A stretch of DNA of 64,000 nucleotides from Peteryoungia algae (GTDB lineage Bacteria > Pseudomonadota > Alphaproteobacteria > Rhizobiales > Rhizobiaceae). Under the pieces are notes generated by a model. It saw nothing but the letters and a program-made list of their open reading frames with translations. It was not told the DNA's origin and did not search any database. Position numbers and translations under genes: made by a program. Positions 35,292 through 55,245 of this stretch are shown here, piece after piece. The first letter of the stretch is position 1. Each line of letters opens with the position of its first letter. Location of the stretch: positions 2,301,001 to 2,365,000 of the forward strand of contig NZ_CP128477.1 in NCBI RefSeq assembly GCF_030369675.1. The letters run 5' to 3'.

Positions 35292-35334
35292 ATCATTTCC
35301 CCTTTTATGGTTGAGCGAATTTTCTTGAGCGCGA

Positions 35335-37227: not shown

Positions 37228-37244
37228 ATTGCGAGAGTGAGGCT

Positions 37245-38539: not shown

Positions 38540-39247
38540 TCACAGCGTCAAAGCAGTAGTGTCGCTCGAAATTAGCGCCCTCAGAATACCTTTCTGGGTG
38601 TGCTCGCTATGCTCCACCATAGCGGCTCGTGCGAGATCGGGATCCCGCAGACGTAGCACATCGACAATACGCCGATGATCGGCGCTGGTTTCCGGATTGA
38701 CGTCTCGACTGACGGCGCCGAGATAGAAGAGACGCGTGCACTCATCAAGATGCGCAGCGACCAGCGCCAACAGCCTGCTATTGTTCGCTCCCTCGGCGAT
38801 CGCAAGGTGGAAATCGCGGTTAGCCTTGACGAAAGACTGTACGCTCTCGCCCTGCTGCGGATCGTAGCGAGCCTCCGCCAGAGCTTCGAGCCGATCAAGG
38901 TCTGCAGCGGATAGATTGAGAGCGGCCATAGCGGCGGCCGTGCCCTCGGTCATCGCGCGGATAGCAAAGAGATCGTTGATGTCCTTTACCGTCACGGGCG
39001 TGACCCGGTAACCTCGTCTAGGAAAAGCTTCGATCAGGCCTTCCGCCACCAATCGACCAAGCGCTTCCCGCACCGGCGTCTTGCTCATGGCAAGCTGCTC
39101 TGCCAGTTCGAGCTCCGAAAACTCGGCCCCGGGCCTTAAGGAGCCGGAGAGAACCCGCGCACGCAGAGAAACATATGCGGTCTCCGTCAAGGAAATTTTC
39201 TTCTGCCGGGCCGGCGAGTTATCACTTTCGACGCTAAGGCTCTGCAA
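38540..39247 (-). CDS. GntR-family regulator with FCD domain
   Basis: 235-residue regulator. N-terminal winged helix (TETAYVSLRARVLSGSLRPG, ELELAEQLAMSKTPVREAL, GRLVAEGLIEAFPRRGYRV) and a C-terminal FCD effector domain with metal-type histidines (FVKANRDFHLAIAEGANN, SADHRRIVDVLR). FCD proteins usually respond to organic acids or sugar acids. Starts at TTG 39247 with GGAGAG upstream; no ATG is available. Divergent from the ureide-type operon and almost certainly its repressor, through the site at 39379-39388. Confidence 0.9.
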   Translation of the reverse strand: MQSLSVESDNSPARQKKISLTETAYVSLRARVLSGSLRPGAEFSELELAEQLAMSKTPVREALGRLVAEGLIEAFPRRGYRVTPVTVKDINDLFAIRAMTEGTAAAMAALNLSAADLDRLEALAEARYDPQQGESVQSFVKANRDFHLAIAEGANNSRLLALVAAHLDECTRLFYLGAVSRDVNPETSADHRRIVDVLRLRDPDLARAAMVEHSEHTQKGILRALISSDTTALTL

Positions 39248-39360: not shown

Positions 39361-39388
39361 TTGACATGAGATATTTCGTAGTATACCA
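39361..39388 (+). promoter_or_regulatory. Promoter with overlapping GntR/FCD operator
   Basis: TTGACA (39361-39366) is a perfect -35 box. TAGTATACCA (39379-39388) fits the FCD consensus TNGTNTACNA and overlaps the expected -10 (TATACC). This places a GntR-type repressor across the start site of the operon beginning at 39439. Confidence 0.6.
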
Positions 39389-39438
39389 CAAGAGATATCA
39401 CAGTTTGACGGCACGGGAGAGCCGTATTTGGAGGAACC

Positions 39439-40098
39439 GTGGCGCAGATCCTGGTGATCAATCCGAACAGCTCGAAAGCCGTCACACGCTCGATGGAGGC
39501 GTGCCTGAAACCGTTCGAAGGCAATGGCCATGAGATCCACTGCACTGAGCTCGAAGGCGCACCGACTGGCATCGAGACGGATGCCCATGTGGCCGAAGTC
39601 GTACCGTTGCTGGTTGAGGCCGTGCAGACGGCGAGAGCAGACGCCATCGTGATCGCATGCTTCTCAGATCCCGGCATTGCGGCCGTGCGAGCTGCCACGA
39701 ATGTCCCGGTCGTCGGCATTGCCGAAGCGGCCTATCTGACGGCGCTCGGCCTTGGACAGCGCTTCGGCATCGTGTCGATGGGCCCGTCCTCGATTGGTCG
39801 TCACCGGCGCTACCTTGAGGCGCTGCAACTCGATCGCAGGCTCGCAGGCGATCGATCGATCGACATGACCGTTGCTGAACTCATCGCACAGGACGCGGTC
39901 ATGCCCGTCACACGCATTTCCTCCGTGCTTCGTGATGAGGACGGTGCCGAGGCAGTCATCCTCGGCTGCGCCGGCCTCGGAACCTACCGGGAGGCTTTGC
40001 AGACGGCGCTGGGTTTGCCCGTCATCGACCCGGTTCAGGCCGGCGTCGCCCTTGCCTGCATGCAGGCTGAACTAGGCTACCGTGGGAGAGTGTCGTGA
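39439..40098 (+). CDS. Hydantoin/allantoin racemase family protein
   Basis: 219-residue Asp/Glu racemase superfamily member with both catalytic cysteines: Cys74 in VIACFSDPG and Cys177 in ILGCAGLG. ILVINPNSSKAVTRSM is the standard start of HyuE/HpxA-type hydantoin and allantoin racemases. It interconverts the enantiomers of a 5-substituted cyclic ureide, probably so that the cyclic amidase in the next gene can use both. GTG start at 39439 behind GGAGGAACC. The stop overlaps the next start (GTGA). Confidence 0.9.
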   Translation: MAQILVINPNSSKAVTRSMEACLKPFEGNGHEIHCTELEGAPTGIETDAHVAEVVPLLVEAVQTARADAIVIACFSDPGIAAVRAATNVPVVGIAEAAYLTALGLGQRFGIVSMGPSSIGRHRRYLEALQLDRRLAGDRSIDMTVAELIAQDAVMPVTRISSVLRDEDGAEAVILGCAGLGTYREALQTALGLPVIDPVQAGVALACMQAELGYRGRVS

Positions 40099-41474
40099 GC
40101 ATTGATCTCGTCATTCGCGGGCGGATCGTCACGCCCCAGATGACTATTCCCAATGGCTGGGTCGCTATCTCAGGCTCGCTCATCCACGCAGTCGGAGAAG
40201 GGGATGCCCCGGCCGCAGCCACCGTTCGCGATGCTGGAGACGCTTTCGTATTGCCGGGCATCATCGATGGACAAACGCATGCGGGTAGCTATCTCGGCCT
40301 CCCGGGGATCGAGCCGACGACCCGATCCGCCATTGCCGGCGGGGTCACGACGATCGTCGACATGCCCTATGACAACCCGACCCCGCTGAGCGCCCGGGAG
40401 CACCTGGACGCCAAGGTCGAAGCCGTCGAACGCTTCGCCCATTGCGATGTCGCGCTCTACGGGACTGTCATGCCAGGGCAATCCGTCGACGAGATGCGAG
40501 CGCTTGCCGCTGGTGGCGTCGTCGCCTTCAAGATCTCCGCTTTCGAAAGCAGTCCGACCCGTTTTCCGAGGATCGATGCGGCACTCGCCCTCGACCTGCT
40601 GGAAGCGCTTTCGGCAACCGATCTGCCGCTTGGATTGCACAACGAAGATCAGGAAATCGTACGCTCACGGGTTTCGCGCGCAAGAGCTGAGGGGCGAAAC
40701 GGCATTACCGCTCACTCGCCGAGCCGGCCCGAAGTCGCAGAACTGGCATCAACCGTGCATTTCCTCGAACTCGCTGCCAATGCCGGTGGGCACGCACATA
40801 TCGTGCACATCAGCACGCCGCGCGGCTTCAAGCTGGTCGACAATTATGTGCAAGAGGGTGTCAGGGCGACCGGCGAGCTCTGCGTCCACTATCTCTGGTT
40901 CGATCCCGAACGCGACGGTGAAGAGCTCGGCGCGCGGATGAAGGTAAACCCACCCATTCGGCCCGGTCAGATCGATCGGCTCTGGCGGGAACTGATCGAA
41001 GGCCGGATCGCCTTCGTCAGCTCAGATCATTCCAGTTGGCCGATCGACAACAAGTTCACCGATAGCATCTTCGATGCCGGTGCCGGCGTGCCCGGAATGG
41101 AGACGCTGTTGCCTGCCTTCTTCACCGTCGCAAAGGAGCGCGGCGTTGATGCAGCTCATTACTGCGCTGAATATCTCGCCGAACGTCCTGCGCGCTTCTT
41201 CGGCCTTTATCCGCGCAAGGGTGCCCTCGTCCCCGGTGCCGATGCTGACATCACGATCCTCGCCGAGGGGGACGATGTCTGGGACGCCAGTCGCGCCCAG
41301 GATGGCCTCAACTGGAGCCCTTACGACGGACGGCGCTTCGCCGCCCGGGTGGCCGCAACCTATCACGCCGGCAGGCTCGCCTATGACGGCCGTGCAGTCC
41401 TCAATACGCCCGGCAGCGGACGCTATCTGCGCCGCGGCGAAAGCAAATGGTTTCCGCAGGATCTCACAACATGA
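40095..41474 (+). CDS. Allantoinase/dihydropyrimidinase-like amidohydrolase with altered metal site
   Basis: 459-residue cyclic amidase of the urease superfamily. Expected ligands are present at Lys146 (VVAFKISAF), the histidines of HAHIVHIST, and the aspartate of FVSSDHSSW. The first HxH motif, though, reads Gln60-Thr-His62 (IDGQTHAG), so one zinc ligand is replaced by glutamine. It still resembles allantoinase in GGVTTIVDMPYDN. It may open a hydantoin, dihydropyrimidine or lactam ring with one metal or different geometry. GTG start overlaps the racemase stop; stop overlaps the VOC start. Confidence 0.87.
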   Translation: MSIDLVIRGRIVTPQMTIPNGWVAISGSLIHAVGEGDAPAAATVRDAGDAFVLPGIIDGQTHAGSYLGLPGIEPTTRSAIAGGVTTIVDMPYDNPTPLSAREHLDAKVEAVERFAHCDVALYGTVMPGQSVDEMRALAAGGVVAFKISAFESSPTRFPRIDAALALDLLEALSATDLPLGLHNEDQEIVRSRVSRARAEGRNGITAHSPSRPEVAELASTVHFLELAANAGGHAHIVHISTPRGFKLVDNYVQEGVRATGELCVHYLWFDPERDGEELGARMKVNPPIRPGQIDRLWRELIEGRIAFVSSDHSSWPIDNKFTDSIFDAGAGVPGMETLLPAFFTVAKERGVDAAHYCAEYLAERPARFFGLYPRKGALVPGADADITILAEGDDVWDASRAQDGLNWSPYDGRRFAARVAATYHAGRLAYDGRAVLNTPGSGRYLRRGESKWFPQDLTT

Positions 41475-41866
41475 CACAGCCCCCCGCCCGGCCCGATGAC
41501 GGTATAGTCGAGAAGGCTATCACCTTCCTCTATTACGTCGATCTTCCCCGTGCATTCGGCTTCTACACAGAAGTTATGGGATTTCCGCTCGAGATCGATC
41601 AGGGGTGGTCGAAGATCCTGAAGATTGCCGAGCATGCCTATGTCGGCCTCGTGGACGAGACCCGAGGAATGCATCGCGCCAATCCTATCAAGCCCGTGCA
41701 GCTTTGCATCCGCGTTCCAGATGTCGATGCCTGGCATCGCTTTCTCTCGAGCCAAAACGCGACCGGGCTGACCGAACCAAAGGACAGCGTCTCCTTGGGA
41801 ATTCGAGCCTTCGTGCTGGAAGACCCGGAAGGCTACCAGATCGAGGTGCAATCCGTACTTCGGTGA
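41471..41866 (+). CDS. VOC/glyoxalase-fold protein
   Basis: 131-residue vicinal-oxygen-chelate protein with the paired beta-alpha-beta-beta-beta modules (ITFLYYVDLPRAFGFYTEVMGF and VQLCIRVPDVDAWHRFL, FVLEDPEGYQIEVQSV). The C-terminal glutamate of YQIEVQ is the usual metal ligand. Function could be isomerase, lyase or dioxygenase. Overlapping ATGA with the amidohydrolase ties it to the same pathway; substrate unknown. Confidence 0.82.
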   Translation: MTQPPARPDDGIVEKAITFLYYVDLPRAFGFYTEVMGFPLEIDQGWSKILKIAEHAYVGLVDETRGMHRANPIKPVQLCIRVPDVDAWHRFLSSQNATGLTEPKDSVSLGIRAFVLEDPEGYQIEVQSVLR

Positions 41867-41912
41867 AAACGCGCATGCAAACGTGTCGGCATACCAAAAA
41901 GGGGAACTAAAA

Positions 41913-43481
41913 ATGCTGAATCTTCGCATGAAATCCGGACGCATCGTGGCACTTGCCGCTTTCGTCCTCCTGAGCTCGACGGCCTTGGGCGGCCTGGTCC
42001 AAGCCAAGGAACTGACCGTCGGCCTGACGTCGGACGCCGTCAATCTCGACCCCCAGGCAGGCGAGGAGTTGTCCAGCAACATCCTCTTCTACCACATCTA
42101 CGATCCACTGGTCCGCCGCAATGCCGACCTGTCCTTCGGACCCGGCCTTGCAGAAAGCTGGGAGCTCAAGGATGACACGACCTGGATGTTCAAGCTACGC
42201 CAGGGCGTCAAGTTCCACAATGGCGAGGACTTCAAGGCGTCCGATGTTGTCTTCACCCTGGACCGGCTGAAGAAGTCGCTGATGGCCAATCTTGGCGCCA
42301 ACATCGCCTCCTTCACAGCGGTCGATGATTACACTGTCGAGATCAAGACTCCCAAGCCCTACGCAGTCCTGCCGAACGATCTGGCAGCCGTCCTGATCCT
42401 CAGCGAGAAGTATGCGAAGGAAGTGGGCGACGAGCAGGTGGATTTGAAGCCTGTTGGCACCGGCCCCTACAAGCTGGTCGAATGGATCAAGGAAGATCAT
42501 ATCACGCTCGCCGCCAATGCTGACTATTTCGCCGGCGCGCCTGAGATCGACGAGGTCACGTTCCGCCCGATCACCAATGGCGCCACCCGTACGGCAGCCC
42601 TGCTGACCGGCGAAGTCGACGTCATCCAGGATCTCAACGTCCGCGACGTCGACCGCGTCAAGGCAGATGACCGCTACAAGGTCATGTCGAAGCCAAGCCT
42701 GCTAAACGTCGTGGTGTCGATCGACCATCGTGAGAAGAGCCCTACCATCGCGCTCGACAAGAACCCGATGATGGATCGTCGCGTCCGTGAAGCCATGGTT
42801 CGCGCGATCGACGTCAATGCGATCAGCAAGATCATCATGAATGGCCTGTCGACGCCGTCGGAGCAATATGTCCCTGCTTCCCATACGGGCTATGTCGACG
42901 GTGCAAGCTTCCGCGACATGTATCCCATGGATCTTGAGAAGGCGGCAGCGCTCATGGCCGAGGCCGGCTATGCCGATGGCTTCACGGTGACCCTCGACAC
43001 CACCAACAATCGCTATGTCAATGACCAGCAGATCGCGCAGGCACTTGCTTCGATGCTCGGCAAGATCAAGATCGATCTCAAGCTCAACCTGATGCCGAAG
43101 TCCAACTTCTTTGGCTACATCCGGGTACCCAGCGAGCAGTCGAGCATGATCATGAGCGGCTGGGACGTTCCGTCTGGTGACGGCGGTTCGATGTACAGCG
43201 TGATGTTCTACTCGCGCGACAAGAAGGAAGGCTATGGTCAGGTCAACCGCGGATCTTATTCCAATCCGAAAGTGGACGAACTGATCGACAAGGCTGATGC
43301 AACCTCCAAGCTCGAAGAGCGCGACGGTTACCTGCAGGAAGTCACCAAGATCCTGATGGAAGACATCCCGATGATCCCGATCCACTACGAGCAGGATCTT
43401 TATGCGGCAAAGACCAATGTCGAGATGACACCGCGTGCGGACAAGTTCCTCTGGGCCTACGAGATCGACATCAAGGAATAA
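41913..43481 (+). CDS. Dpp/Opp-type periplasmic binding protein
   Basis: 522-residue SBP type 5 with a Sec signal peptide (IVALAAFVLLSSTALGGLVQA, cleavage near QAKE). Family motifs: GLTSDAVNLDPQA, LAESWELKDDTTWMFKLRQG, KFHNGEDFKASDVVFTL, and GTGPYKLVEW. Delivers the substrate to the DppBCDF-like transporter downstream. In this operon the substrate is likely a cyclic or linear amide rather than a peptide. ATG 41913 follows AAAGGGGAAC. Confidence 0.92.
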   Translation: MLNLRMKSGRIVALAAFVLLSSTALGGLVQAKELTVGLTSDAVNLDPQAGEELSSNILFYHIYDPLVRRNADLSFGPGLAESWELKDDTTWMFKLRQGVKFHNGEDFKASDVVFTLDRLKKSLMANLGANIASFTAVDDYTVEIKTPKPYAVLPNDLAAVLILSEKYAKEVGDEQVDLKPVGTGPYKLVEWIKEDHITLAANADYFAGAPEIDEVTFRPITNGATRTAALLTGEVDVIQDLNVRDVDRVKADDRYKVMSKPSLLNVVVSIDHREKSPTIALDKNPMMDRRVREAMVRAIDVNAISKIIMNGLSTPSEQYVPASHTGYVDGASFRDMYPMDLEKAAALMAEAGYADGFTVTLDTTNNRYVNDQQIAQALASMLGKIKIDLKLNLMPKSNFFGYIRVPSEQSSMIMSGWDVPSGDGGSMYSVMFYSRDKKEGYGQVNRGSYSNPKVDELIDKADATSKLEERDGYLQEVTKILMEDIPMIPIHYEQDLYAAKTNVEMTPRADKFLWAYEIDIKE

Positions 43482-43564
43482 CCCCAACCCGAACGAGCGC
43501 GGGGCTGTCGACCTTGAAAGGGGACAGTCCCGAATTTCTCACTTCTTCATGACGGGACACTGCC

Positions 43565-44530
43565 TTGCTGGGTTACACGATCAAGCGGCTCCTGCAGATG
43601 GTGCTGGTACTCTTTTGCGTATCGGTCATCGTCTTCCTGATGATGAGCTTTACCGGCGATCCCGTCTTCATGGTGATCCCGATTGATTCCACCACCGCCG
43701 AGATCGAACAGGCCCGCCGTCTCCTGGGTCTCGATCGATCCCTGGTGAGCCAGTATTTCATCTTCCTTGGCAACATGTTGCAGGGCGATTTCGGGCGTTC
43801 CTATGTGTTCCGACAGCCGGCCATGGACCTCATCCTGGAGCGTCTACCGGCAACGATCGAAATGGTGCTGGTAGCAATCATGCTGGCGACCGTGATTGCC
43901 GTCCCGCTCGGCGTCTATGCCGGGGCCAATCCAAACAAGCCGGTTTCTCGCGGCATCATGGCGGGCTCGCTGCTCGGCATTTCCCTCCCAGGCTTCTGGG
44001 TGGGCATGATGCTGATTTTCTTCTTATCTGTCCGCTATCAGCTTCTGCCCTCCTCCGGACGCGGCGATACGGTGGAAATCTTGGGCCTGCGCATATCCAT
44101 CTTCACGGCGGACGGCTGGTCCCACATCATCCTGCCATCCGTGACACTGGCGCTGGCCACCCTTGCCATCATGCTGCGCATGACCCGTGCGGGCATGATG
44201 GAGGTGATGCGTCAGGACTATATGCGGTTTGCCCGTGCAAAGGGCGCGTCCCGCCAGAACATCCTGTTCAGGCATGGCCTGAAGAACGCTCTCATTCCGG
44301 TCGTCACGATCTTCGGCCTGCAGCTCGGGGACCTCATCGCTTTTGCAACGATCACCGAAACCATCTTCGCATGGCCTGGGACCGGCAAGCTGCTGATCGA
44401 TTCCATCTACCGCGGGGATCGCCCGGTCATCGTCGTCTACCTGATGCTGACCGCGTTCATCTTCGTTGCCATCAATTTCATTGTCGACATCGTTTACACG
44501 CTGATCGACCCGCGCATTACCGTGAAGTGA
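43565..44530 (+). CDS. DppB-type ABC permease
   Basis: 321-residue permease. Begins LGYTIKRLLQMVLVL from TTG 43565, with six helices and the binding-protein-dependent loop (FARAKGASRQNILFRHGLKNALIPVVT). DppB-like hallmark: a long first periplasmic region with the LGLDRSLVSQYFIFLGNMLQGD stretch. Pairs with the next gene product. Confidence 0.9.
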   Translation: MLGYTIKRLLQMVLVLFCVSVIVFLMMSFTGDPVFMVIPIDSTTAEIEQARRLLGLDRSLVSQYFIFLGNMLQGDFGRSYVFRQPAMDLILERLPATIEMVLVAIMLATVIAVPLGVYAGANPNKPVSRGIMAGSLLGISLPGFWVGMMLIFFLSVRYQLLPSSGRGDTVEILGLRISIFTADGWSHIILPSVTLALATLAIMLRMTRAGMMEVMRQDYMRFARAKGASRQNILFRHGLKNALIPVVTIFGLQLGDLIAFATITETIFAWPGTGKLLIDSIYRGDRPVIVVYLMLTAFIFVAINFIVDIVYTLIDPRITVK

Positions 44531-44537
44531 GGATGGC

Positions 44538-45410
44538 ATGACCGGGTTCTTCTCTTCGGAATTCTTCTTTCACTACCGCCGAAACCTGCCGGCGGTCTTC
44601 GGAAGCGTACTGCTCGTCTTCTTCGCCCTGCTTGCGACCTTCGGGCCACTTCTCGTCGCCCAGGACCCCTATGACGTTTCGCAGTTGGAACTGATGGACA
44701 GCTTCAAGCCGCCGGTATGGCTCGAGGGCGGGGATGTCAGATACTTGCTCGGGACAGATGGTCAGGGCCGCGACGTCCTTGCATCCATTGTCTACGGTGC
44801 GCGAATTTCCGCCTTCATCGGCCTCGCCGCCATGATCTTCTCCTGTGGGATCGGGACCGCACTCGGGCTGATTTCCGGTTACTACGGGGGGATCGTCGAT
44901 AGCATCATCATGCGCATCGCAGACATCCAGCTGTCGTTTCCCTCGATGCTGATTGCGCTTTTCCTGATGTCGGCATTCGGAACCGGCATCGGCATGGTTC
45001 TCATCGCCCTCACCGCCGTCGGCTGGGTGGTTTACGCCCGCACCGTTCGCGGATCGACCTTGAGCGAAATCCAGAAGGAATACATTCAGGCGGCAAAGGT
45101 GGCGGGGCTTGGAAACGGCGAGATCATCCTGCGCCACGTGCTGCCAAACGTGATGACGCCGCTCATCGTGGTTGCCACGATCCAGGTCGGCACCTTCATC
45201 CTGATCGAGGCATCCTTAAGCTTTCTCGGTGTCGGCGTCCCCATCACCGAGCCTTCGCTCGGCCTGCTCGTAAAGGAGGGCTTCGATGTCCTGTTCTCGG
45301 GCATCTGGTGGACCTCTGCCTTCCCCGGTCTGTTCATCATGTTCCTCGTCTTCGGCATCAACCTGTTCGGCGACTTCCTGCGGGACGAACTCAATCCGCG
45401 GCTGAGATGA
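44538..45410 (+). CDS. DppC-type ABC permease
   Basis: 290-residue permease with the DppC start (an N-terminal cytoplasmic part and helix, then YLLGTDGQGRDVLASIVYGAR) and the loop IQAAKVAGLGNGEIILRHVL. Six hydrophobic segments. Seven bases separate it from DppB. ATG 44538 follows GAGG. Confidence 0.92.
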   Translation: MTGFFSSEFFFHYRRNLPAVFGSVLLVFFALLATFGPLLVAQDPYDVSQLELMDSFKPPVWLEGGDVRYLLGTDGQGRDVLASIVYGARISAFIGLAAMIFSCGIGTALGLISGYYGGIVDSIIMRIADIQLSFPSMLIALFLMSAFGTGIGMVLIALTAVGWVVYARTVRGSTLSEIQKEYIQAAKVAGLGNGEIILRHVLPNVMTPLIVVATIQVGTFILIEASLSFLGVGVPITEPSLGLLVKEGFDVLFSGIWWTSAFPGLFIMFLVFGINLFGDFLRDELNPRLR

Positions 45411-45427
45411 CGAAGGAGACAGCGACC

Positions 45428-46408
45428 ATGGGCGAAGCACTTCTCGAAGTCCGGGATCTCAAGACACATTTCCATACCTTCGGTGGCGTGGTGAAAGCCG
45501 TCGATGGCGTGAGCTTCGACGTTCGCCCGGGAGAGGTCGTCGGCCTCGTCGGCGAGTCCGGTGGCGGGAAATCGGTAATCGGCTTTTCCATTCTCGGCCT
45601 GATCGATCCACCCGGACGGATTGAGGCCGGCCGTATTCTCTTTGCTGGCGAAGATCTGACCCGCAAGAGCGAAGACCAGATGCGCGCAGTGCGCGGCGGC
45701 GAAATCGCCATGGTGTTCCAGGACCCCATGACGTCTCTCAATCCGGTCTACACGGTCGGACGCCAGATGGACGAAATGCTGCGCCTGCATACCGACCTCG
45801 ATCAGAAGGCGCGGCGTGCACGCTGCATCGAGATGCTCGAGGACGTCGGCATCTCGGAGGCCGCCAGCCGGCTCGACGCCTATCCGCACCAGTTCTCTGG
45901 TGGCATGCGCCAGCGCGTCGTGATTGCCATCGCCCTCCTGGCCGGTTCCCGCCTGATCATCGCGGACGAACCGACCACGGCCCTCGACGTCACCGTCCAG
46001 GCCCAGATCTTGAAGCTCATGCGCCGCCAGATCCTTGATCGCGGGGCCGCCATGATCCTTGTGACCCACGATCTCGCAGTTGTCTCCGAGATGGCGGACC
46101 GGGTGGTCGTGCTCTATTGCGGAAAGGTAGTGGAACGGGGCCTGACGACGGAGATCATCCAGTCCCCTGCCCATCCCTATACGCGCGGGCTCTTGGACAG
46201 CATTCCGAAGATCACCGATCGCCGGGCACGTCTGAGCCAGATTCCAGGCACCGTGCCGGACATCCGCACCCTCGGCCAAGGGTGCAGCTTCAGGGATCGG
46301 TGTTTCCGGGCCCAGACCATCTGCACTGAACATACACCGGTCCTGTCTCCGGTTCGCGGATCGCTGGACGCCGCATGCCACTTTCCTCTGGAGGAGACTG
46401 TTCCATGA
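45428..46408 (+). CDS. DppD-type ABC ATPase
   Basis: 326-residue ATPase: Walker A LVGESGGGKSV, Q-loop MVFQDPMTSLNPVYTVG, signature FSGGMRQRVVIAIALL, Walker B LIIADEPTTALD, and the Opp/Dpp C-terminal extension with a cysteine cluster (GCSFRDRCFRAQTIC). ATG 45428 is preceded by AAGGAG; ATG 45407 would overlap the DppC stop but has a weaker site. Stop overlaps the next start by four bases. Confidence 0.92.
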   Translation: MGEALLEVRDLKTHFHTFGGVVKAVDGVSFDVRPGEVVGLVGESGGGKSVIGFSILGLIDPPGRIEAGRILFAGEDLTRKSEDQMRAVRGGEIAMVFQDPMTSLNPVYTVGRQMDEMLRLHTDLDQKARRARCIEMLEDVGISEAASRLDAYPHQFSGGMRQRVVIAIALLAGSRLIIADEPTTALDVTVQAQILKLMRRQILDRGAAMILVTHDLAVVSEMADRVVVLYCGKVVERGLTTEIIQSPAHPYTRGLLDSIPKITDRRARLSQIPGTVPDIRTLGQGCSFRDRCFRAQTICTEHTPVLSPVRGSLDAACHFPLEETVP

Positions 46409-47433
46409 CGCCCCCCGTACTCGAGGTCCGTGGCCTGGTGAAAGCCTTTCCAGTTGGAGGCATTTTTGATCGGCTGCAATTCGGAAAAGGAAAGCTGCTT
46501 GCCCCCCAGAAGCAATTGCGCGCCGTGAACGGAGTCGACTTGTCGATTGCCCCCGGCGAAGTCATGGCCCTGGTGGGCGAATCCGGCTGCGGAAAGTCGA
46601 CCGTGGCCAAAACCATCGCCCGGATCTACGAGCCGACCGCAGGCGAAATCCGGATTGATGGCGAAGACATCTCCCGCATGAAGTTTCGGGAAATGCGTCC
46701 GATCCGCCGCAAGCTGCAGATGATCTTCCAGGATCCATATGCCTCACTCGATCCTCGGCAGCGGGTCAGGGACATCGTGATGGAGCCGAGACGCGCTCAA
46801 GCCGGGGGCAAGATCAGTCGACGCGAACTCCATGATGAGGCGATCGCACTTCTGGCGAAGGTTGGCCTCAATGCCGAACAGGCGGGACGCTACCCGCATC
46901 AGTTTTCGGGAGGTCAGCGGCAGCGGATCGGCATCGCCCGCGCATTGTCGGTCCGGCCAAAGATCATCATTGCCGACGAGCCGGTATCGGCGCTCGACGT
47001 CTCGATCCAGGCGCAGATCCTCAACCTGATGATGGACCTGCGCGACGAGTTCGGCCTCTCCTATCTCTTCGTCTCGCACGACCTCTCGGTGGTTCACCAC
47101 ATCGCCGACCGGATCGGCGTCATGTATCTCGGCTTCATGGTGGAGACGGCCAGCCGCGACCAGTTGTTCAGCCAGCCGAAACATCCCTACACGCAGGTTC
47201 TGCTCTCGGCCGCGCCGACCATCGACAAGTCGCTGGCTAAGCCGAAGATCGAGATCGTCGGCGAAGTGCCAAGCGCACTGCGCCTGCCCTCCGGCTGCTG
47301 CTTCAGAACGCGCTGCCCCATGGCATTCGATCGATGCGCGGTCGACCGTCCGGTGTTGACGCCCCAGCCGGATGGCAGCGCCGTCGCATGCCATCTCCAT
47401 GATCGGAATGATGCCGAAAGGAAAAGCCAGTGA
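46405..47433 (+). CDS. DppF-type ABC ATPase
   Basis: 342-residue partner ATPase: Walker A LVGESGCGKSTVAK, FQDPYASLDPRQRV, signature FSGGQRQRIGIARALS, Walker B IIIADEPVSALD, and the C-terminal cysteine-containing Opp tail (GCCFRTRCPMAFDRC). Its insert GGIFDRLQFGKGKLL before Walker A is usual for DppF/OppF. Completes the importer with DppB, C, D and the secreted binding protein. Confidence 0.93.
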   Translation: MTPPVLEVRGLVKAFPVGGIFDRLQFGKGKLLAPQKQLRAVNGVDLSIAPGEVMALVGESGCGKSTVAKTIARIYEPTAGEIRIDGEDISRMKFREMRPIRRKLQMIFQDPYASLDPRQRVRDIVMEPRRAQAGGKISRRELHDEAIALLAKVGLNAEQAGRYPHQFSGGQRQRIGIARALSVRPKIIIADEPVSALDVSIQAQILNLMMDLRDEFGLSYLFVSHDLSVVHHIADRIGVMYLGFMVETASRDQLFSQPKHPYTQVLLSAAPTIDKSLAKPKIEIVGEVPSALRLPSGCCFRTRCPMAFDRCAVDRPVLTPQPDGSAVACHLHDRNDAERKSQ

Positions 47434-48899
47434 GTTCGTCCGCCGTCATTGTTCAACCGCGCCTCGCCGTCGAAGATCCGCATGACTGTACCGATGCGAA
47501 TGACATGCTGGCTGTATTCGACGCCCTGTTCGACGGACTTGTGCGCTATGGCAAGGATGGTGGCTACGTGCCAGCGCTGGCAAGCTCCTGGGATGTCACA
47601 CCGGATGCGCGACACTGGACATTCAGGCTAAGGGAAGACTTGAGCTTTCACGATGGCAGCCCATGCGATGCGGCGGCCGTCTGCCAATCCCTGACACGCA
47701 TGGCCCGTCCCGACAAAGGCTACACGCTGGGGGCGCCCGGTGTCTGGCATCAGTATCTCGGTGACGCAGAAATCGAGGCAATCGATCCTCACACGGTCGC
47801 CATCCGCTTGTCGAAGCCGATCGCCGATCTCCTCGACATCCTGGTTTACGGCTATGTGATCGCTCCCTCCGCACTGGCACGCTACGAGGCAGGAGACACA
47901 TCACAACCGGTCGGCACGGGCCCTTATCGCCTGGTATCCTACGAACCCGGCCATGCCCTGCACCTCCAGCGTTTCGATGGCTGGCATGGGGAGCGACCAG
48001 CCAATGCCGAACTCACCTTCCGCCTGGAACAAAACCGGGAAGCGCGGCTGGACATGCTGATCTCCGGCCAGGCGCAGGTGGCAAACAGCCTTGATTTCGA
48101 AGCATCCAAGGCGCTCGAAGATACGGGCCGGCATACGCGGGTCACATCTCTCGTCCCTGTCGCCATCATCTATCTTTTCAACGCCTTCAAGGGACCGCTG
48201 ACCGACAGCCGCGTTCGCCGCGCTCTCAATCTGGCGATCGACCGCCAGGCCCTGATCGATCGTGTGGTGAGAGGTGCAGCAAAGCCACTGACCGGCTTCG
48301 TCAGCCCCGCACATTTCGGCAGCCTGCCATCGGAGGATCTGCGCCCTGATCGCGATCAGGCACAGAGGCTGCTTACCGAGGCCGGCTTCAGCGACGGCCT
48401 GACCATCGAGGTCGATTGCCCGACACGCCTTCCCGATGAAGCCGAGGCACTGACGGCCGCTCTTGCCGAGCAGCTTTCCGCAATTGGCGTGACGCTGAAC
48501 ATACACCTCCACACGGACCGCGAGGCCTATGCCCATGGCGTGCGCCTGAAACAGGTGCGCGACATGTGCGTCTTCGATTCAAGCCCCTTGAGCACCTTCC
48601 GCATCCTTGCTGAAAAGATCGATCAAAGGGCCAATGGCTCCTGGTGGCTGGGCTTCCACAATGCCGAGGTCGAAGACTTGCTCGATAGGGCACGGGCAAC
48701 TGTTGATCCAATTGAACGTGCGGAGATCTTCAAAAAGGCCTTCCACGCGCTGCAAGTGGATCCTCCATGGCTCTATCTCTACAATCCGCTGAGGGTGACA
48801 GGCCTGTCCGGATCCTGGCCGGACTGGCGCATGCGCCAGGATTGCGTGCTCGACGTGACGCGGCTTCCTGATTTCCAGACCGGGAAGAGAGCACCATGA
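47430..48899 (+). CDS. Second SBP type 5 domain protein without a signal peptide
   Basis: 489-residue protein of the same family as the periplasmic binding protein at 41.9 kb: DALFDGLVRYGKDGGYVPAL, WTFRLREDLSFHDGS, PVGTGPYRLVSYEPG, SRVRRALNLAIDRQAL. Its N-terminus (SSSAVIVQPRLAVEDPHDC) has no signal peptide or lipobox, so it should stay in the cytoplasm unless the start is wrong. No start further upstream is plausible because the GTG overlaps the DppF stop (GTGA). It may have been recruited as a cytoplasmic ligand-binding or regulatory protein, or be cryptic. Confidence 0.85.
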   Translation: MSSSAVIVQPRLAVEDPHDCTDANDMLAVFDALFDGLVRYGKDGGYVPALASSWDVTPDARHWTFRLREDLSFHDGSPCDAAAVCQSLTRMARPDKGYTLGAPGVWHQYLGDAEIEAIDPHTVAIRLSKPIADLLDILVYGYVIAPSALARYEAGDTSQPVGTGPYRLVSYEPGHALHLQRFDGWHGERPANAELTFRLEQNREARLDMLISGQAQVANSLDFEASKALEDTGRHTRVTSLVPVAIIYLFNAFKGPLTDSRVRRALNLAIDRQALIDRVVRGAAKPLTGFVSPAHFGSLPSEDLRPDRDQAQRLLTEAGFSDGLTIEVDCPTRLPDEAEALTAALAEQLSAIGVTLNIHLHTDREAYAHGVRLKQVRDMCVFDSSPLSTFRILAEKIDQRANGSWWLGFHNAEVEDLLDRARATVDPIERAEIFKKAFHALQVDPPWLYLYNPLRVTGLSGSWPDWRMRQDCVLDVTRLPDFQTGKRAP

Positions 48900-50356
48900 G
48901 GCACGTCGACCTGATCATCATTGGCGGCACCGTCCTCACCATGGACGGCAGTCGCCGCGTCCTCGACAAGGGTGCACTCGCCGTCCACGAAGGTCGCATC
49001 GTGGCGGTAGGGCACGCGGTCGAGATCGACAGAGAATACCAGGCCGAGCGGCAGATCGACGCCAGCGGCAAGGTGGTGATGCCCGGAATGATCGACGTCC
49101 ATGCCCATGCAGGCCACGGCTTGATCAAGACTATGGGCATGGAGCAAGGCAATCACTGGGAAGAGATCTGCAACGCTGCCTATACCGTCGGTTCGACACC
49201 GGAATTCTGGTTCGCGGAGGCGCGGCTTGCAGCCCTTGAGCGGCTGCGCTTCGGCGTCACCACCGGCGTTTCGCTTCTCGGTGGCGGCGACACAATCATG
49301 CGGACGGATGACGTCGCCTATGGAAGCGCGCATTGCGAGGGCGTCGCTGAAATTGGCACGCGCTCAGTCGTCGCCGTCGGACCAACCCGCCCTCCGCATC
49401 CGCGAACCTATGCGTCGTGGCACGACGGCAAGGCGTCAGAAGGGCCCGTGACATACGAGGAGCAGTTGATTGTCAGCCGCAAACTCCTCGAGATGTGGCA
49501 TGGGCGCGGACGCCTCAACATCGCCTTGCTCACCCCTGTGCTGCGCGACGAACATCAGCGCGACATGTCTGCCGCAGACTACGAGGCTGCGGTCGCTCAG
49601 ACGAAGACCGTGCGGGCGCTCTCGCGCGAGGCGGGCGTGGTGTTCACCCAGGATGGTCACTGGAAGGGCTCGGTTTCCCGCGCAGAGACGCTCGGCATCC
49701 TCGGTCCGGACGCGCTTCTATCTCATGCCATCGACATCACGCCAGAAGAGATCCGCATCATCGCCGACACAGGTACCCGCATCGCCCACAATCCCAGCGC
49801 CATCGCCTCCATCCTCGGCCGATGCCCGGCGATCGAACTGATCGAGGCGGGTGCTGTGGTGGCGATTGGCTCCGATGCAACTGCGCCGGACAGATCGGCG
49901 GACATGTTCCGGCACATGCAGCAGTGCATGCATTACCACCGCACGCATTTTCGCGATCCCTCCGTCCTGCCTCCAGGCAAGGCCCTTGAAATGGTGACGA
50001 TCGATGCCGCGACCGCCTTGGGGCTCGACCGGGACCTTGGGTCCCTCGAAGTCGGCAAGAAGGCCGACATCGTGGTGGTCGACATGATGCGCCCGCACCT
50101 CGCGCCCTACCAAATGCCGATCTTCCGCCTTTCCTACTTCGCCAACGGCAATGACGTCGACACCGTTGTGATCGACGGGCAGGTTCTGCTCGAAGGTGGC
50201 CGCCCCCTGCTGACCGACCTTGATGAGGTCGTCGCGGAAGCCGACAGGCAAGCCTGCCTGCTGATCGAGCGCATGGGCCTCGAAAAGATGATCGGCCAGC
50301 CGCACGGCTTTTTTGGCCATGCAAGATACCCAAAACATCAAGGAGACAGCCAATGA
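48896..50356 (+). CDS. AtzA/TrzA-type amidohydrolase (deaminase)
   Basis: 486-residue metal-dependent hydrolase of the cytosine/guanine deaminase, TrzA/AtzA group: GGTVLTMDGSRRVLDKGALA, metal motif His69-x-His71 (MIDVHAHAG), further histidines in FTQDGHWKG and LLSHAID, an aspartate in IGSDATAPD, and the C-terminal barrel (GSLEVGKKADIVVVDM). It likely removes ammonia or another leaving group from an N-heterocycle. Coupled by overlap (ATGA) to the SBP and to the DapA-like gene. Confidence 0.9.
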   Translation: MRHVDLIIIGGTVLTMDGSRRVLDKGALAVHEGRIVAVGHAVEIDREYQAERQIDASGKVVMPGMIDVHAHAGHGLIKTMGMEQGNHWEEICNAAYTVGSTPEFWFAEARLAALERLRFGVTTGVSLLGGGDTIMRTDDVAYGSAHCEGVAEIGTRSVVAVGPTRPPHPRTYASWHDGKASEGPVTYEEQLIVSRKLLEMWHGRGRLNIALLTPVLRDEHQRDMSAADYEAAVAQTKTVRALSREAGVVFTQDGHWKGSVSRAETLGILGPDALLSHAIDITPEEIRIIADTGTRIAHNPSAIASILGRCPAIELIEAGAVVAIGSDATAPDRSADMFRHMQQCMHYHRTHFRDPSVLPPGKALEMVTIDAATALGLDRDLGSLEVGKKADIVVVDMMRPHLAPYQMPIFRLSYFANGNDVDTVVIDGQVLLEGGRPLLTDLDEVVAEADRQACLLIERMGLEKMIGQPHGFFGHARYPKHQGDSQ

Positions 50357-51282
50357 TGAGGCTGAATGAAAAGGCAAAAGGCGTCTATGTTATCGCCCTC
50401 ACCCCTTTTACGGAGACGGGTGAACTCGATCTGGATAGCACTGACCGCATGGTCGATTTCTACCTTGAGCGCGGTGCGACTGGACTGACCGTGCTTGGAA
50501 TGATGGGGGAAGCGCAAAAGCTCACCATCGAGGAATCGCAAACCTATGTCCGACGGATCCTTCGCAGGGTCGATGGCCGCGTGCCTGTTGTAGCGGGTGT
50601 CTCTGCTGCGGGCTTTGCCCAGATGCAGGCCTTGACCACGATGGTGATGGATGACGGCGCTGCAGGTGTCATGATTGCTCCGCCATCCTCCCTGCGCAAC
50701 GATCAGCAGATCGTCACCTACTACAAGCAGGCGGCGGAGTTCATTGGCGACACGCCTTTCGTGCTGCAGGATTTCCCTCTCGTCACAAGCGTCACCATCC
50801 CCGTCTCCGTCATCCAGACGATCATCGATCAGATCCCGACCTGCGTCTGCCTTAAACACGAGGACTGGCCTGGTCTTTCCAAGATTACCGCACTCAGGAC
50901 CGCGTCGGAGCCCCCCGGCAAGAGACGCATATCAATCCTGTGCGGCAATGGCGGCGTCTTCCTGCCGGAAGAGATGGCGCGCGGGGCGGACGGCGCCATG
51001 ACCGGCTTTGCTTATCCGGAGATGATGCGCGACGTCGTCCTCCACCATGAGCGCGGGGATGCCGAGCGCGCCCAGGACATCTTCGACGCCTATCTCCCAC
51101 TTGCCCGCTACGAACAGCAACCGGGCCTCGGCCTCTCCATCCGGAAATACATCATGGCCAAACGCGGCGCGATCGCCACGCCGACACTGCGCAAACCGGG
51201 GGGATCGCTTTCTCCCGCCGATATCAATGAGGTCGAGCGCCTCATCGCGCGCCAGGACAGAAGATTGAAGGAACTCCGCTGA
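50353..51282 (+). CDS. DapA-like (dihydrodipicolinate synthase family) aldolase/hydratase
   Basis: 309-residue TIM-barrel Schiff-base enzyme. Lys168 in CVCLKHED is the catalytic lysine; GMMGEAQKLT is the GTxGE-like carboxylate pocket with GMMGE in place of GTTGE. The tyrosine normally found in the YNxP motif is replaced (LQDFPL at 138-143). So it is not likely to be the lysine-pathway DapA but a catabolic aldolase or lyase, such as a decarboxylating or hydrating enzyme. It overlaps neighbours on both sides by a few bases. Confidence 0.88.
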   Translation: MMRLNEKAKGVYVIALTPFTETGELDLDSTDRMVDFYLERGATGLTVLGMMGEAQKLTIEESQTYVRRILRRVDGRVPVVAGVSAAGFAQMQALTTMVMDDGAAGVMIAPPSSLRNDQQIVTYYKQAAEFIGDTPFVLQDFPLVTSVTIPVSVIQTIIDQIPTCVCLKHEDWPGLSKITALRTASEPPGKRRISILCGNGGVFLPEEMARGADGAMTGFAYPEMMRDVVLHHERGDAERAQDIFDAYLPLARYEQQPGLGLSIRKYIMAKRGAIATPTLRKPGGSLSPADINEVERLIARQDRRLKELR

Positions 51283-52064
51283 TGGAACTGGGCTTGAAAA
51301 ACAAAACCGCTCTTGTGATGGGTGCAAGCCGCGGACTGGGCGCCGCGATTGCCCGCGGGCTCGCCGAAGAAGGGGTGACAGTCTATGCCGCCGCCCGCAA
51401 CATCTCGGCCATTTCGGCCTGGGCATCCGAGCTCGCACCGACGTCCGGTACCGTCATTCCGCTGCAGCTCGACCTTTCCGACATCGACAGCGTGGACGGG
51501 GCAATTGCCTCTCTGGTTGCGGCAGGGGGTGTCGACATTCTCGTCAACAATTCTGGTGGCCCGCCGCCGGCTGCAGCCATCGATGCGAAACGAACGGACT
51601 GGATCGGCAATTTCGAGACGATGGCTGCCAACATCTTCCATCTGACCACTAGTCTTCTGCCCGGGATGCGGGAAAAGCGCTGGGGTCGGATCATATCGAT
51701 CGCCTCCTCAGGAGTAGAACAGCCGATCGCACGGCTGGCGCTTTCGAACGGTATTCGCTCGGCCCTGATAGGCTGGTCGAAAACACTTGCTGCGGAAGTA
51801 GCCTCAGAAGGTGTCACGGTGAACGTGCTTCTTCCGGGGCGCATTCACACACAAAGGGTGGACGAACTCGATGCAGCCGCAGCCAGCCGTTCAGCCAAGA
51901 GTGTCGAGGAGATCGCGGCCGCATCCGCTGCCGGCATTCCGACCGGGCGTTATGGTCGGCCTGAGGAATTTGCCGCAGTTGCCGTGTTCCTGGCCTCCGA
52001 GCCCGCCTCGTATGTGACGGGAAGCAAGATCAGAGTGGATGGCGGTGCAATCCGATCCGTCTGA
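51282..52064 (+). CDS. SDR-fold protein lacking the catalytic Tyr and Lys
   Basis: 260-residue short-chain dehydrogenase-like protein with the cofactor loop GASRGLGAAIA, LVNNSGGPPPAA and the C-terminal GRPEEFAAVAVFLASEPAS. The YxxxK site is changed: the aligned stretch reads LALSN (Leu152 and Asn156), so tyrosine and lysine are both absent. A known atypical SDR group has this form. It may bind NAD(P) structurally or catalyse another reaction. Start overlaps the previous stop (TGATG); last gene of the 12.6-kb operon. Confidence 0.87.
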   Translation: MELGLKNKTALVMGASRGLGAAIARGLAEEGVTVYAAARNISAISAWASELAPTSGTVIPLQLDLSDIDSVDGAIASLVAAGGVDILVNNSGGPPPAAAIDAKRTDWIGNFETMAANIFHLTTSLLPGMREKRWGRIISIASSGVEQPIARLALSNGIRSALIGWSKTLAAEVASEGVTVNVLLPGRIHTQRVDELDAAAASRSAKSVEEIAAASAAGIPTGRYGRPEEFAAVAVFLASEPASYVTGSKIRVDGGAIRSV

Positions 52065-52086: not shown

Positions 52087-52782
52087 TTACGGCTCCAGTC
52101 CCGCACAACGGGCGGTATTGCGGATATGGGTTTCCATCTCGAGTTTAGCCCGCTGGCCATCATTCGACCGGAGCGCCGAAATGATCTTTCGGTGCTCACT
52201 GATCGATTCCCGCATCCTCTCGGGATCAGTGATCGGGATCGGCTGCCGCTGAGTCTCCGTCACCTGATCCCGCACCGTTTGGTAAAGCGCCTTGAGCATG
52301 GCATTCGAACAGGCGGAAACGATTGTACCGTGAAATTCGAGATCGGCCTCGACATTGGCCAGCAGATCCTGGCTGGCCCAGCAGTCCTCCATCGTTCTGG
52401 TCGCCTGCTCCATTTTGTCGAGCTGCAACTGGGCAAGACGGCCTGCGGCTAACCGCGCAATTTCGCCTTCGAGCAGGATACGGGTCTGGAAAACATCGAA
52501 GACCGAATAGCTGTCGGAATAACGCCAAGGCGCCATATGACCGCTCGTGCCGGCCGTGGCTGCCGGACTGGCAACGAACGTCCCCCTGCCCGCTTCCGTC
52601 TTCAGAAGGCCCAGCGTTTCCAGGGTCAGCAAGGCTTCGCGCAAGGACGCGCGACTAATGCCGAATTTCTGTGAGAACTCGCGTTGCGACGGGATTTTCT
52701 CACCCGGCTTCAACTGGCCGGACTGGATCATGCCCTGGATCTCGCGTGCCACGGATTGTGGCACGAGCGTCTTGTTGAACAT
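52087..52782 (-). CDS. GntR-family regulator with FCD domain
   Basis: 231-residue FadR/PdhR-type regulator: helix-turn-helix GEKIPSQREFSQKFGISRAS, LREALLTLETLGLLKTEAGRG and an all-helical FCD effector domain (FQTRILLEGEIARLAAGRL, ADLEFHGTIVSACSN, SISEHRKIISAL). ATG 52782 follows GGGGAAGAG; the frame extends 48 codons further without a site. Divergent from the polar amino acid ABC operon, and its likely operator lies at 52876-52890. Confidence 0.92.
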   Translation of the reverse strand: MFNKTLVPQSVAREIQGMIQSGQLKPGEKIPSQREFSQKFGISRASLREALLTLETLGLLKTEAGRGTFVASPAATAGTSGHMAPWRYSDSYSVFDVFQTRILLEGEIARLAAGRLAQLQLDKMEQATRTMEDCWASQDLLANVEADLEFHGTIVSACSNAMLKALYQTVRDQVTETQRQPIPITDPERMRESISEHRKIISALRSNDGQRAKLEMETHIRNTARCAGLEP

Positions 52783-52875
52783 GCGGTCTCTTCCCCGGCA
52801 GCCTGTTTCGAAGCGCAAGTGTATTTTTTCTGGCCGCCCCTTGCCAAGCAGAAAGCAGCATGCTTGTTTGGCCTG

Positions 52876-52890
52876 ACTGGTCTGACCAGT
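52876..52890. promoter_or_regulatory. PdhR/FadR-type operator, perfect palindrome
   Basis: ACTGGTC-T-GACCAGT is a perfect 7+1+7 palindrome. The core TGGTCTGACCA has the TGGT..ACCA form used by PdhR/LldR-type FCD regulators. It lies between the divergent GntR gene and the binding protein gene (ATG 52938), with a second partial half-site TTAGACCAA downstream. Confidence 0.7.
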
Positions 52891-52937
52891 TAGACCAATG
52901 TAGATTGAGTCATGTTCAAAAAACAAGGGGAACTCTC

Positions 52938-53732
52938 ATGACACGTTCATCCACAGTCAAGGCAACACTGGTGGCAGGCCTGCTGGCCACCTTCGGCAGC
53001 CCGGTGCACGCAGCAGACCTGACGGTCGGCGCGAATATCGGCAATGTGCCGTGGGAATTTGAAGACGCCAGTGGCAAGGTCACCGGTTTCGAGGTCGACC
53101 TCGTCAACGAGATCGCAAAACGCCTCGGCAAGACAGTCGAATTCGTCAACACGCCATTCAACGGCCTCTTCCCGGCTGTCCAGTCTGGCCGCATCAACAT
53201 GGCGATCTCGTCGATCACCATCACCGAAAAGCGGCTGGAATCAGTTTCGTTCGCCCAGCCATACTATGACAGCGACCAGTCGCTTACGGTAACGGCCGCC
53301 TCGGGCATCACCGGCCTGGCCGACATGGGCGACAAAGTCGTCGGCGTGGATACCGGCTCGACCGGCGACATGTGGGCCGATGCCAACAAGGGCGAGTACA
53401 AGCTCGGAGAAATTCGCCGCTTCGAGGGTCTCCAGCCCGCGATGCTCGACCTGGTTGCCGGCCGCATCGACGGCTACATTTCCGACATTCCGGCCCTTCT
53501 CTACTACGTCAAGGACAAGCCGGAACTGAAGGTGGTTGAACGCATCCCGACGGGCGAGAAATACTCGATCATGTTCAACAAGGATGATCCGCTCGCAGCC
53601 GAAGTGAACACCGTCATCACCACACTTAAGCAAGAGGGCTTCATCGCCCAACTGCATGAGACCTGGTTCGGTGCCAAGGCCGAGGACACCACCTCGACAG
53701 TCACCGTACTCGACATGCCCAAGGCCATGTAA
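52938..53732 (+). CDS. Polar amino acid ABC binding protein
   Basis: 264-residue SBP type 3 with a Sec signal peptide (TRSSTVKATLVAGLLATF, cleavage after HAA). Family motifs: GANIGNVPWEFEDASGKVTG, FEVDLVNEIAKRLGK, FNGLFPAVQSGRINMAISSI, TITEKRLESVSFAQPYYDS. The ligand is an amino acid or related compound. ATG 52938 sits behind AAGGGGAACTCTC. Confidence 0.92.
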   Translation: MTRSSTVKATLVAGLLATFGSPVHAADLTVGANIGNVPWEFEDASGKVTGFEVDLVNEIAKRLGKTVEFVNTPFNGLFPAVQSGRINMAISSITITEKRLESVSFAQPYYDSDQSLTVTAASGITGLADMGDKVVGVDTGSTGDMWADANKGEYKLGEIRRFEGLQPAMLDLVAGRIDGYISDIPALLYYVKDKPELKVVERIPTGEKYSIMFNKDDPLAAEVNTVITTLKQEGFIAQLHETWFGAKAEDTTSTVTVLDMPKAM

Positions 53733-53795
53733 CGCTCGAAACGCAACCGGTGGAACGGTCTCGTTCCGCCGGCCTGCCATGGGAGCCGAAACGGC

Positions 53796-55216: not shown

Positions 55217-55245
55217 ACAAGAACAAGACCGGAGGACACACCGCC

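Follow-up and report, generated by a model that had tools for sequence, protein, structure and literature searches.

What does a bacterium import and degrade with an operon that joins a hydantoin-type racemase and a cyclic amidohydrolase to a Dpp-type importer, a second substrate-binding protein (SBP), and proteins of the AtzA, DapA, and SDR types? This question is raised by a locus of Peteryoungia algae (Rhizobiaceae), whose 4.4 Mb genome consists of one contig. The window analyzed here is a stretch of 64,000 nucleotides of that genome (NZ_CP128477.1, positions 2,301,001 to 2,365,000), and the operon occupies positions 39439–52064 of it. An original prediction, made from the DNA sequence alone, had set these coordinates correctly and had read from the gene order a succession of import, racemization, ring opening, deamination, and C–C cleavage. 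The locus is a conserved import-and-degradation operon with a credible ring-opening core, and the later steps, as they had been named, are not supported. With roughly even confidence, we regard it as an inducible operon for importing and degrading a compound of peptide size that either contains a chiral ring of the hydantoin (cyclic ureide) type or yields one on conversion.

Conservation and Regulation of the Operon

Twelve plus-strand genes follow one another in the order racemase, ERTD (an ErtD-like cyclic amidohydrolase), VOC, SBP1, DppB, DppC, DppD, DppF, SBP2, ATZ (an AtzA-like amidohydrolase), DAPA (a DapA-like protein), and SDR, and none of their frames holds an internal stop (Table 1). 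Eleven genes had been counted previously, most of them overlapping by 1–4 bases; the overlaps stand, as neighboring genes share 1 or 4 bases at eight of the 11 junctions, and the count is corrected to twelve. Gaps separate VOC from SBP1 (46 bases), SBP1 from DppB (83 bases), and DppB from DppC (7 bases), these junction counts resting on the starts chosen for VOC, SBP1, DppD, and DppF. Families were assigned by comparing Pfam and NCBIfam profile scores with their cut-offs, which bore out the earlier family calls.

A genome scan of contigs with ATZ as the query returned 165 relatives, and the best 80 of these, corresponding to 79 loci, were kept. Genes were counted as present at 60% identity, or at 45% for SBP2 and ATZ. 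All twelve genes plus the regulator gene GntR1 occur in 12 of the 79 loci, always in a single order and on a single strand, GntR1 being divergent, under record titles of Rhizobium, Agrobacterium, Gellertiella, Microvirga, Ensifer, Sinorhizobium, and Rhizobiales. One further locus (L041) has all but SDR. A plasmid of Microvirga ossetica also carries all twelve genes, including an SDR that the gene table of the record omits, and on an Ensifer adhaerens plasmid ERTD, ATZ, and DAPA are found at 92–94% identity and spaced as in the window. The genomic context search that the original prediction had called for has therefore recovered the conserved order in 12 of 79 loci and on one plasmid, besides the locus without SDR. 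Since these loci and the Microvirga ossetica plasmid keep the same 12 genes on one strand, the gene order is beyond chance and the conserved operon is genuine. Within the genus of the window the operon is patchy, because ATZ is found at 91–93% identity in only seven of 62 other genomes.

Both the GntR1 gene and a 12-base near-palindrome upstream of the racemase gene, GTAGTATACCAC, belong to the unit, and both lie outside the range first proposed. GntR1 stands divergent beside the racemase gene in all 12 complete loci, in L041, and in the plasmid locus L124, and relatives 47–59% identical to it occur in L118, L121, L125, L126, and L133. A site with at most two mismatches to the consensus GTAGTATACTAC lies at −58 to −61 in all 15 window-type loci (the window, the 12 complete loci, L041, and L124), and L121 has a near-palindrome at −62. 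Base shuffles equaled the site in 0 to 5 of 300 trials, counts that serve as a rough guide because the consensus was derived from the same loci that were later scored. The rest of the window has no second site within two mismatches of the consensus, and a scan with a sigma-70 pattern found no plus-strand promoter near the palindrome. From this arrangement we infer that GntR1 binds the near-palindrome. A single operator for all loci with the racemase-ERTD-DAPA module was considered and rejected, as L118, L125, L126, and L128 have no palindrome site better than shuffles.

The Racemase and the Putative Ring-Opening Enzyme

The racemase scores 186 bits against PF01177, for which the gathering cut-off is 31, and its nearest solved structures are named hydantoin and allantoin racemases. 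Its two Cys motifs, whose Cys residues we take to be catalytic, are kept in 97% and 89% of the sequences in an alignment with 37 homologs, which upholds the earlier assignment as a racemase.

ERTD scores 488 bits against the ErtD model NF058538 (cut-off 600), 273.5 against the AllB model TIGR03178 (cut-off 357.85), and 184.3 against the D-hydantoinase model TIGR02033 (cut-off 393.25); it also scores 334 bits against NF058539. At its metal site, Gln replaces the first metal His, giving DGQTH in all 21 ERTD sequences at least 57% identical (the one in the window included) as compared with DAHTH in the allantoinase 3e74, and the other metal-site residues (Lys, two His, and Asp) are kept in these sequences. 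The same Gln is present in an ErtD above its cut-off (776 vs. 600 bits; DAQVH), which is encoded in a Neorhizobium plasmid locus (L131, 2338–14391). By our own observation, Gln at the first metal position may thus be a mark of the ErtD family. In an amidase tree of 28 sequences, in which DHP2 was entered twice and L147, L148, and L081 went uncounted for the motif because its pattern had no match in them, the 11 ERTD members without L128 form a group with support of 0.974. It falls together with the group that contains the ErtD (support 0.997 when the joint group has 19 members and 0.583 when it has 20), whereas the dihydropyrimidinases stand apart.

These relationships bear on whether the operon could be a rearranged known pathway, namely allantoin, reductive pyrimidine, or ergothioneine catabolism, which we judge improbable. 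The racemase and the amidase do resemble allantoin racemase and AllB, and ERTD resembles ErtD, but ERTD falls under the AllB, D-hydantoinase, and ErtD cut-offs alike. The L131 locus encodes a thiohydantoin desulfurase and a thiourocanate hydratase over cut-off as well as ErtD, together with an NtaA/DmoA-type monooxygenase, and it also has an M20 protein whose given name is N-carbamoyl-beta-alanine amidohydrolase; its hydratase, desulfurase, and M20 carbamoylase-type genes are absent from the twelve, and L131 itself has no DAPA match. Elsewhere in the Peteryoungia genome, moreover, a different gene of the hydantoinase type lies next to one for a TIGR01879 protein. Judged by titles, the beginnings of abstracts, and term counts, the open-access literature searched offered no described counterpart of the operon, in keeping with the earlier remark that the combination matches no nameable pathway.

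A second type of locus offers a further indication of what the ring may be. SBP2, ATZ, and DAPA occur together in another arrangement in 10 of the 79 loci, where VOC, SBP1, DppBCDF, and the racemase are also kept (L091 and L108 have no racemase match); this type is found on Sulfitobacter and Labrenzia plasmids, in Kiloniellaceae, and in others, and an SDR match is present in three of the ten genome loci. Seven of the ten (L048, L064, L070, L081, L083, L091, and L099) lack ERTD and carry a gene of the dihydropyrimidinase type that is 43–71% identical to the dihydropyrimidinase gene of the window. The four second-type hydantoinases that were scored all pass TIGR02033 (393), with 558 bits in L081, 526 in L070, and 499 and 489 in the plasmid loci L132 and L116. 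The dihydropyrimidinase-type gene can be read as standing in for ERTD in the second type. On this reading, a hydantoin or dihydropyrimidine ring is supported. Ring opening, which had been ascribed to an allantoinase-like amidase, is therefore credible for ERTD as a sister of ErtD whose place may be taken by a TIGR02033-type enzyme in second-type loci.

Signature Residues in ATZ, DAPA, SDR, and VOC

The ATZ model (AlphaFold2, mean predicted local distance difference test score of 93) is nearest in fold to AtzA 4v1x, with a template modeling (TM) score of 0.78–0.80 at 26% identity. The deaminase motif consists of HxH, a β-5 H-x-H-x-x-E, a β-6 His, and a β-8 Asp. An alignment of 47 sequences shows no variation at His69, His71, His277, or Asp327, whereas QDGH replaces the β-5 H-x-H-x-x-E in 107 of the 108 members of the ATZ clade (at least 36% identity), the exception being QDGP in L062 (9995–11449). 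H-x-H-x-x-E is absent from all 108; below 36% identity, 17 of 31 relatives have it, which makes the pattern an imperfect control. Judging from the alignment, Gln252 may take the place of a metal His and His255 that of the Glu. Given this replacement, deamination by an AtzA-type protein, as proposed in the original prediction, is not supported.

DAPA retains the Schiff-base Lys, within KHEDWPG, in all 47 aligned homologs. The motif of pyruvate-type DapA and N-acetylneuraminate lyase (NAL) proteins presumably comprises this Lys, a Thr/Ser-Thr pair, and a Tyr. In the same 47 sequences, GTTGE is replaced by GMMGE or a near variant, and no conserved Tyr follows the PP motif. DAPA scores 106 bits against the DapA model TIGR00674, for which the cut-off is 206, and its nearest solved relative, 3dz1, is named dihydrodipicolinate synthase. 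The Lys is kept, but with the pyruvate-type Thr-Thr and Tyr absent, C–C cleavage by a DapA-type aldolase is not supported. In the SDR protein, ALSNGIRS stands where YxxxK would be; the Ser, Asn, and Arg are present in all 23 aligned sequences, with no Tyr or Lys there, and the SNG-x-R motif is also found in PDB entries 5idx, 5vps, and 5va8 (GLSNGARS). For VOC, only the C-terminal Glu is evident among the four metal ligands at the positions we assume for them (23 homologs), and no solved relative was found in the PDB; a role as a methylglyoxal enzyme was dropped for these two reasons. As the signature residues are absent, deamination, pyruvate-type aldol cleavage, and dehydrogenation cannot be inferred from the family names of these proteins.

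The Importer and a Leaderless Binding Protein

The operon encodes a complete Dpp/Opp-type importer set, comprising an SBP, two permeases, and two ATPases with oligo_HPY domains; none of the four membrane and ATPase parts reaches an NCBIfam cut-off among the matches listed. Judged by residue count and hydropathy at its N-terminus, the second SBP has no room for a signal peptide, so that on this evidence it is not a second periplasmic receptor. SBP2 begins directly at the N-terminus of a mature SBP. The homologs examined were the 120 listed of 1604, and after five without an N-terminus were left out, 114 of the remaining 115 have at most 22 residues before the DPHDCTD motif, the exception (P0061) having 79. 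Within the N-terminal 45 residues, the peak hydropathy of 11-residue segments does not exceed 1.68 in 33 SBP2 orthologs, a set in which 10 of the 33 frames begin further upstream under a first-start rule. The corresponding peak in SBP1 is 1.70 to 2.88, the protein of the window included, in the 18 of 24 orthologs whose frame starts at most 18 residues from that of the window. The AlphaFold2 model of SBP2 (mean predicted local distance difference test score of 87.8) has the whole SBP fold, with a TM score of 0.83 to YliB. In the SBP2 alignment (A2; 54 members, taking in 53 of the 120 homologs listed), 107 columns are invariant, of which SBP1 shares 36 and differs at 71.

At E ≤ 1e-100, SBP2 occurs in six of 385 genomes sampled from the class of the window, its own genome included; the named relatives indicate that this class is Alphaproteobacteria. 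One of the five others (L156) has the second operon type; for the remaining four (L157, L158, L159, and L160), neither DppB nor DppC has a match in the 19–20 kb around SBP2. In L157, L158, and L159, SBP2 starts within 20 residues of the motif, and an ABC ATPase and an HlyD protein of another kind lie near it in L158. The SBP2 relative overlaps an SDR gene in L157 and lies near a Rieske protein gene in L159. Because there is no room for a signal peptide and no import permease lies beside four of the five others, SBP2 most likely resides in the cytosol and would be more than an additional receptor, whether it acts as an enzyme, a carrier, or a sensor. One survey reports that SBP profiles are also matched by single-domain proteins of the cytosol that have other functions, and that about 1% of the proteins it retrieved were predicted to be cytosolic (PMC9602780). 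Our literature search found no description of a cytoplasmic family-5 SBP of the SBP2 kind. We tentatively propose, at somewhat less than even confidence, that SBP2 founds an intracellular family with the peptide-SBP fold, whose members either catalyze a reaction or pass the imported compound on to ATZ, and that with the non-canonical sites of ATZ, ERTD, DAPA, and SDR several of the reactions are new for the superfamilies concerned.

One Operon from Two Modules

The operon joins two modules that are also found apart. ATZ occurs without DAPA (threshold 55%) or SBP2 (threshold 45%) in 56 of the 79 loci, 10 of which are on stretches shorter than 12 kb. Conversely, racemase, ERTD, DAPA, SDR, and a GntR1 relative occur without the importer of the window in Martelella (L126), and a similar set with a fragmented ERTD is present in Neorhizobium galegae (L125) and Alloyangia (L133). 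The racemase-ERTD-DAPA trio is present in L151, and partial modules are found in Maritalea (L118, without SDR), on Rhizobium pMK-3 (L114, with an AroM-family gene and no racemase or GntR1 match), and in Agrobacterium (L115, with no racemase match and a more distant SDR). In three loci (L129, L130, and L084), two QDGH amidohydrolases, 58–59% and 41–44% identical to ATZ, flank another Dpp-type importer, and a DAPA match is absent.

It could be that two unrelated functions merely share one transcript, one formed by the importer, SBP2, and ATZ and the other by the racemase, ERTD, DAPA, and SDR. The ATZ relatives in the 56 loci, the association of the racemase-ERTD-DAPA-SDR module with amino acid ABC or TRAP transporters elsewhere, and the SBP2 relatives standing alone in four genomes speak for such a division. 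However, SBP2 of at least 45% identity occurs only together with DAPA in the 79 loci (in none of the 56 others), and the modules are linked in two arrangements, one in 13 loci and the other in 10, and are interleaved in the window type, so that we consider two separate functions improbable. A single operon for import and catabolism, as first proposed, is supported.

Proposed Pathway and Its Difficulties

In the pathway that we favor, GntR1 would repress the operon from the upstream near-palindrome, and SBP1-DppBCDF, by its family, would import that compound. ATZ, with the leaderless SBP2, may trim or hydrolyze it to a 5-substituted hydantoin, whose enantiomers the racemase would interconvert. 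ERTD would then open the ring to give an N-carbamoyl-type acid, and DAPA, whose conserved Lys would form a Schiff base, might process this acid together with the SDR-like protein. VOC would probably be a metal-free accessory. Arginine glycation was also considered as the source of the substrate (MG-H1, cleaved to ornithine and 5-methylhydantoin), given that alkylaminohydrolases are found among the ATZ relatives and that a racemase would suit such a substrate; it was set aside as a guess with no positive evidence, and the literature looked up did not contain the word hydantoin.

Several observations weigh against this pathway. ERTD lies under all 25 curated cut-offs among the matches listed, that of ErtD included. 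Three second-type loci have no full hydantoinase gene (L047 has a fragment at a contig end, and L045 and L108 have none), two of them being on contigs shorter than 6.2 kb. The window also holds a TIGR02033 dihydropyrimidinase 4.5 kb beyond the end of the operon, and since it carries both ring-opening types, 15 kb apart, the two may have separate jobs. An SDR match is absent from seven of the ten second-type loci. L121 and L128 have racemase and ERTD with no DAPA match, L119, L120, L122, L123, and L127 have DAPA without ERTD, and DAPA is absent from four of the five stretches with ERTD relatives, L151–L155 (those four, L152–L155, at 43–48% identity); because each occurs without the other, ERTD and DAPA need not share one pathway. 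Some of the operon proteins may no longer be enzymes. Finally, Pfam and NCBIfam profiles find no N-carbamoylase among the 12 genes, and the only TIGR01879 protein of the genome over cut-off (398 vs. 204 bits) is encoded far from the window, about 0.7 kb from another hydantoinase-type gene. This protein could act in trans for the operon.

That the substrate is a ureide is deduced indirectly, with no N-carbamoylase encoded in the operon, and this absence would also suit a non-ureide cyclic amide, imide, or lactam, for example with a 5-oxoproline- or imidazolone-like ring. No carbamoyl group would then be formed, no carbamoylase would be needed, and the keto or imino acid released by ring opening would itself be the substrate of DAPA. 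Record names of genes near DAPA-SDR pairs point the same way, with Salipiger records naming 5-oxoprolinase subunits along with a D-amino acid transaminase, and Bradyrhizobium records naming an alanine racemase as well as a protein with a glutamate cyclase domain. Against this, the closest relative of ERTD is ErtD, and second-type loci encode TIGR02033 enzymes, both of which are named for hydantoins or dihydropyrimidines; we therefore regard a non-ureide ring as somewhat unlikely.

If the cyclic-ureide pathway is right, the operon would be a defined gene set for the use of a nitrogen-ring compound in scattered soil and marine bacteria, and a reason against naming proteins as deaminase, DapA aldolase, or dehydrogenase by family alone. 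SBP2 would be a concrete test case of an SBP recruited to the cytosol.

Features of the Locus and Neighboring Genes

Table 1. Coordinates of the operon genes, the divergent regulator gene, and the presumed operator within the window.
Feature	Coordinates	Strand	Basis
GntR1, GntR/FCD regulator, divergent, presumed repressor	38540..39247	−	Pfam FCD and GntR
Near-palindrome GTAGTATACCAC, presumed operator	39378..39389	.	Starts 61 bases before racemase
RAC, Asp/Glu/hydantoin racemase	39439..40098	+	PF01177, 186 bits
ERTD, ErtD-like cyclic amidohydrolase, QxH metal site	40095..41474	+	NF058538, 488 bits (cut-off 600)
VOC protein, metal ligands mostly not evident	41471..41866	+	PF00903, 38.7 bits
SBP1, family 5 (GsiB/YliB-like), hydrophobic leader	41913..43481	+	PF00496, 285 bits; N-terminal hydropathy
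DppB-type importer permease	43565..44530	+	PF00528 and PF19300
DppC-type importer permease	44538..45410	+	PF00528 and PF12911
DppD-type importer ATPase	45407..46408	+	PF00005 and PF08352
DppF-type importer ATPase	46405..47433	+	PF00005 and PF08352
SBP2, leaderless family-5 SBP (PF00496), predicted cytosolic	47430..48899	+	N-terminus length in homologs; AlphaFold2 model
ATZ, AtzA-like amidohydrolase, QDGH clade	48896..50356	+	Nearest solved structure AtzA 4v1x
DAPA, DapA-like, Lys present, Thr-Thr/Tyr absent	50353..51282	+	PF00701, 111 bits; 3dz1, 322 bits
SDR, atypical, without YxxxK	51282..52064	+	PF13561, 143 bits

A second cluster lies downstream of the operon at 52087–57974, with a FadR-type GntR gene on the minus strand, a polar amino acid ABC importer, a class V aminotransferase-like gene (TIGR01976, 369 bits; cut-off 352), and the dihydropyrimidinase gene (56544–57974; TIGR02033, 547 bits; cut-off 393). 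Among the 12 complete loci and L041, the dihydropyrimidinase gene is found downstream (93% identity) only in L043; the stretches of L036, L038, and L039 end too early or nearly so. In the second-type locus L048 a 71% identical relative lies about 4 kb from SDR. The cluster at 52860–57974 may belong to the operon system. On the other side, a minus-strand ABC importer and a LysR-type regulator (33037–38195), recognized from their translations only, adjoin the operon.

Comparison with Known Systems

The ergothioneine cluster, in which ErtD (NF058538) is a hydantoin-5-propionate amidohydrolase, is akin to the operon through the sister relationship of ERTD and the Gln in place of the first metal His. 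The operon differs in having no thiourocanate hydratase, desulfurase, or carbamoylase, in having DAPA, SDR, a Dpp importer, and ATZ, and in an ERTD that scores below the ErtD cut-off. Hydantoin utilization shares the pairing of a racemase with a cyclic amidase, and its TIGR02033 hydantoinases are present in second-type loci, whereas the operon has no carbamoylase among its genes and ERTD lies outside TIGR02033. The allantoin pathway is similar in the nearest structures of the racemase and differs in that ERTD does not reach the AllB cut-off.

Among individual proteins, ATZ shares with the AtzA/TrzN/SAH deaminase type the fold, the HxH, His277, and Asp327, and differs by QDGH and by its low identity to AtzA. 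DAPA shares the fold family and Schiff-base Lys of the DapA/N-acetylneuraminate lyase superfamily but has GMMGE for GTTGE and no conserved Tyr. The SBP2 model matches YliB over its length, and SBP2 differs from the SBPs GsiB/YliB and DppA in having no signal peptide. A precedent for an SBP turned enzyme is cyclohexadienyl dehydratase, an SBP-fold enzyme described as derived from an amino acid binding protein (PMC7683729); SBP2 instead belongs to PF00496.

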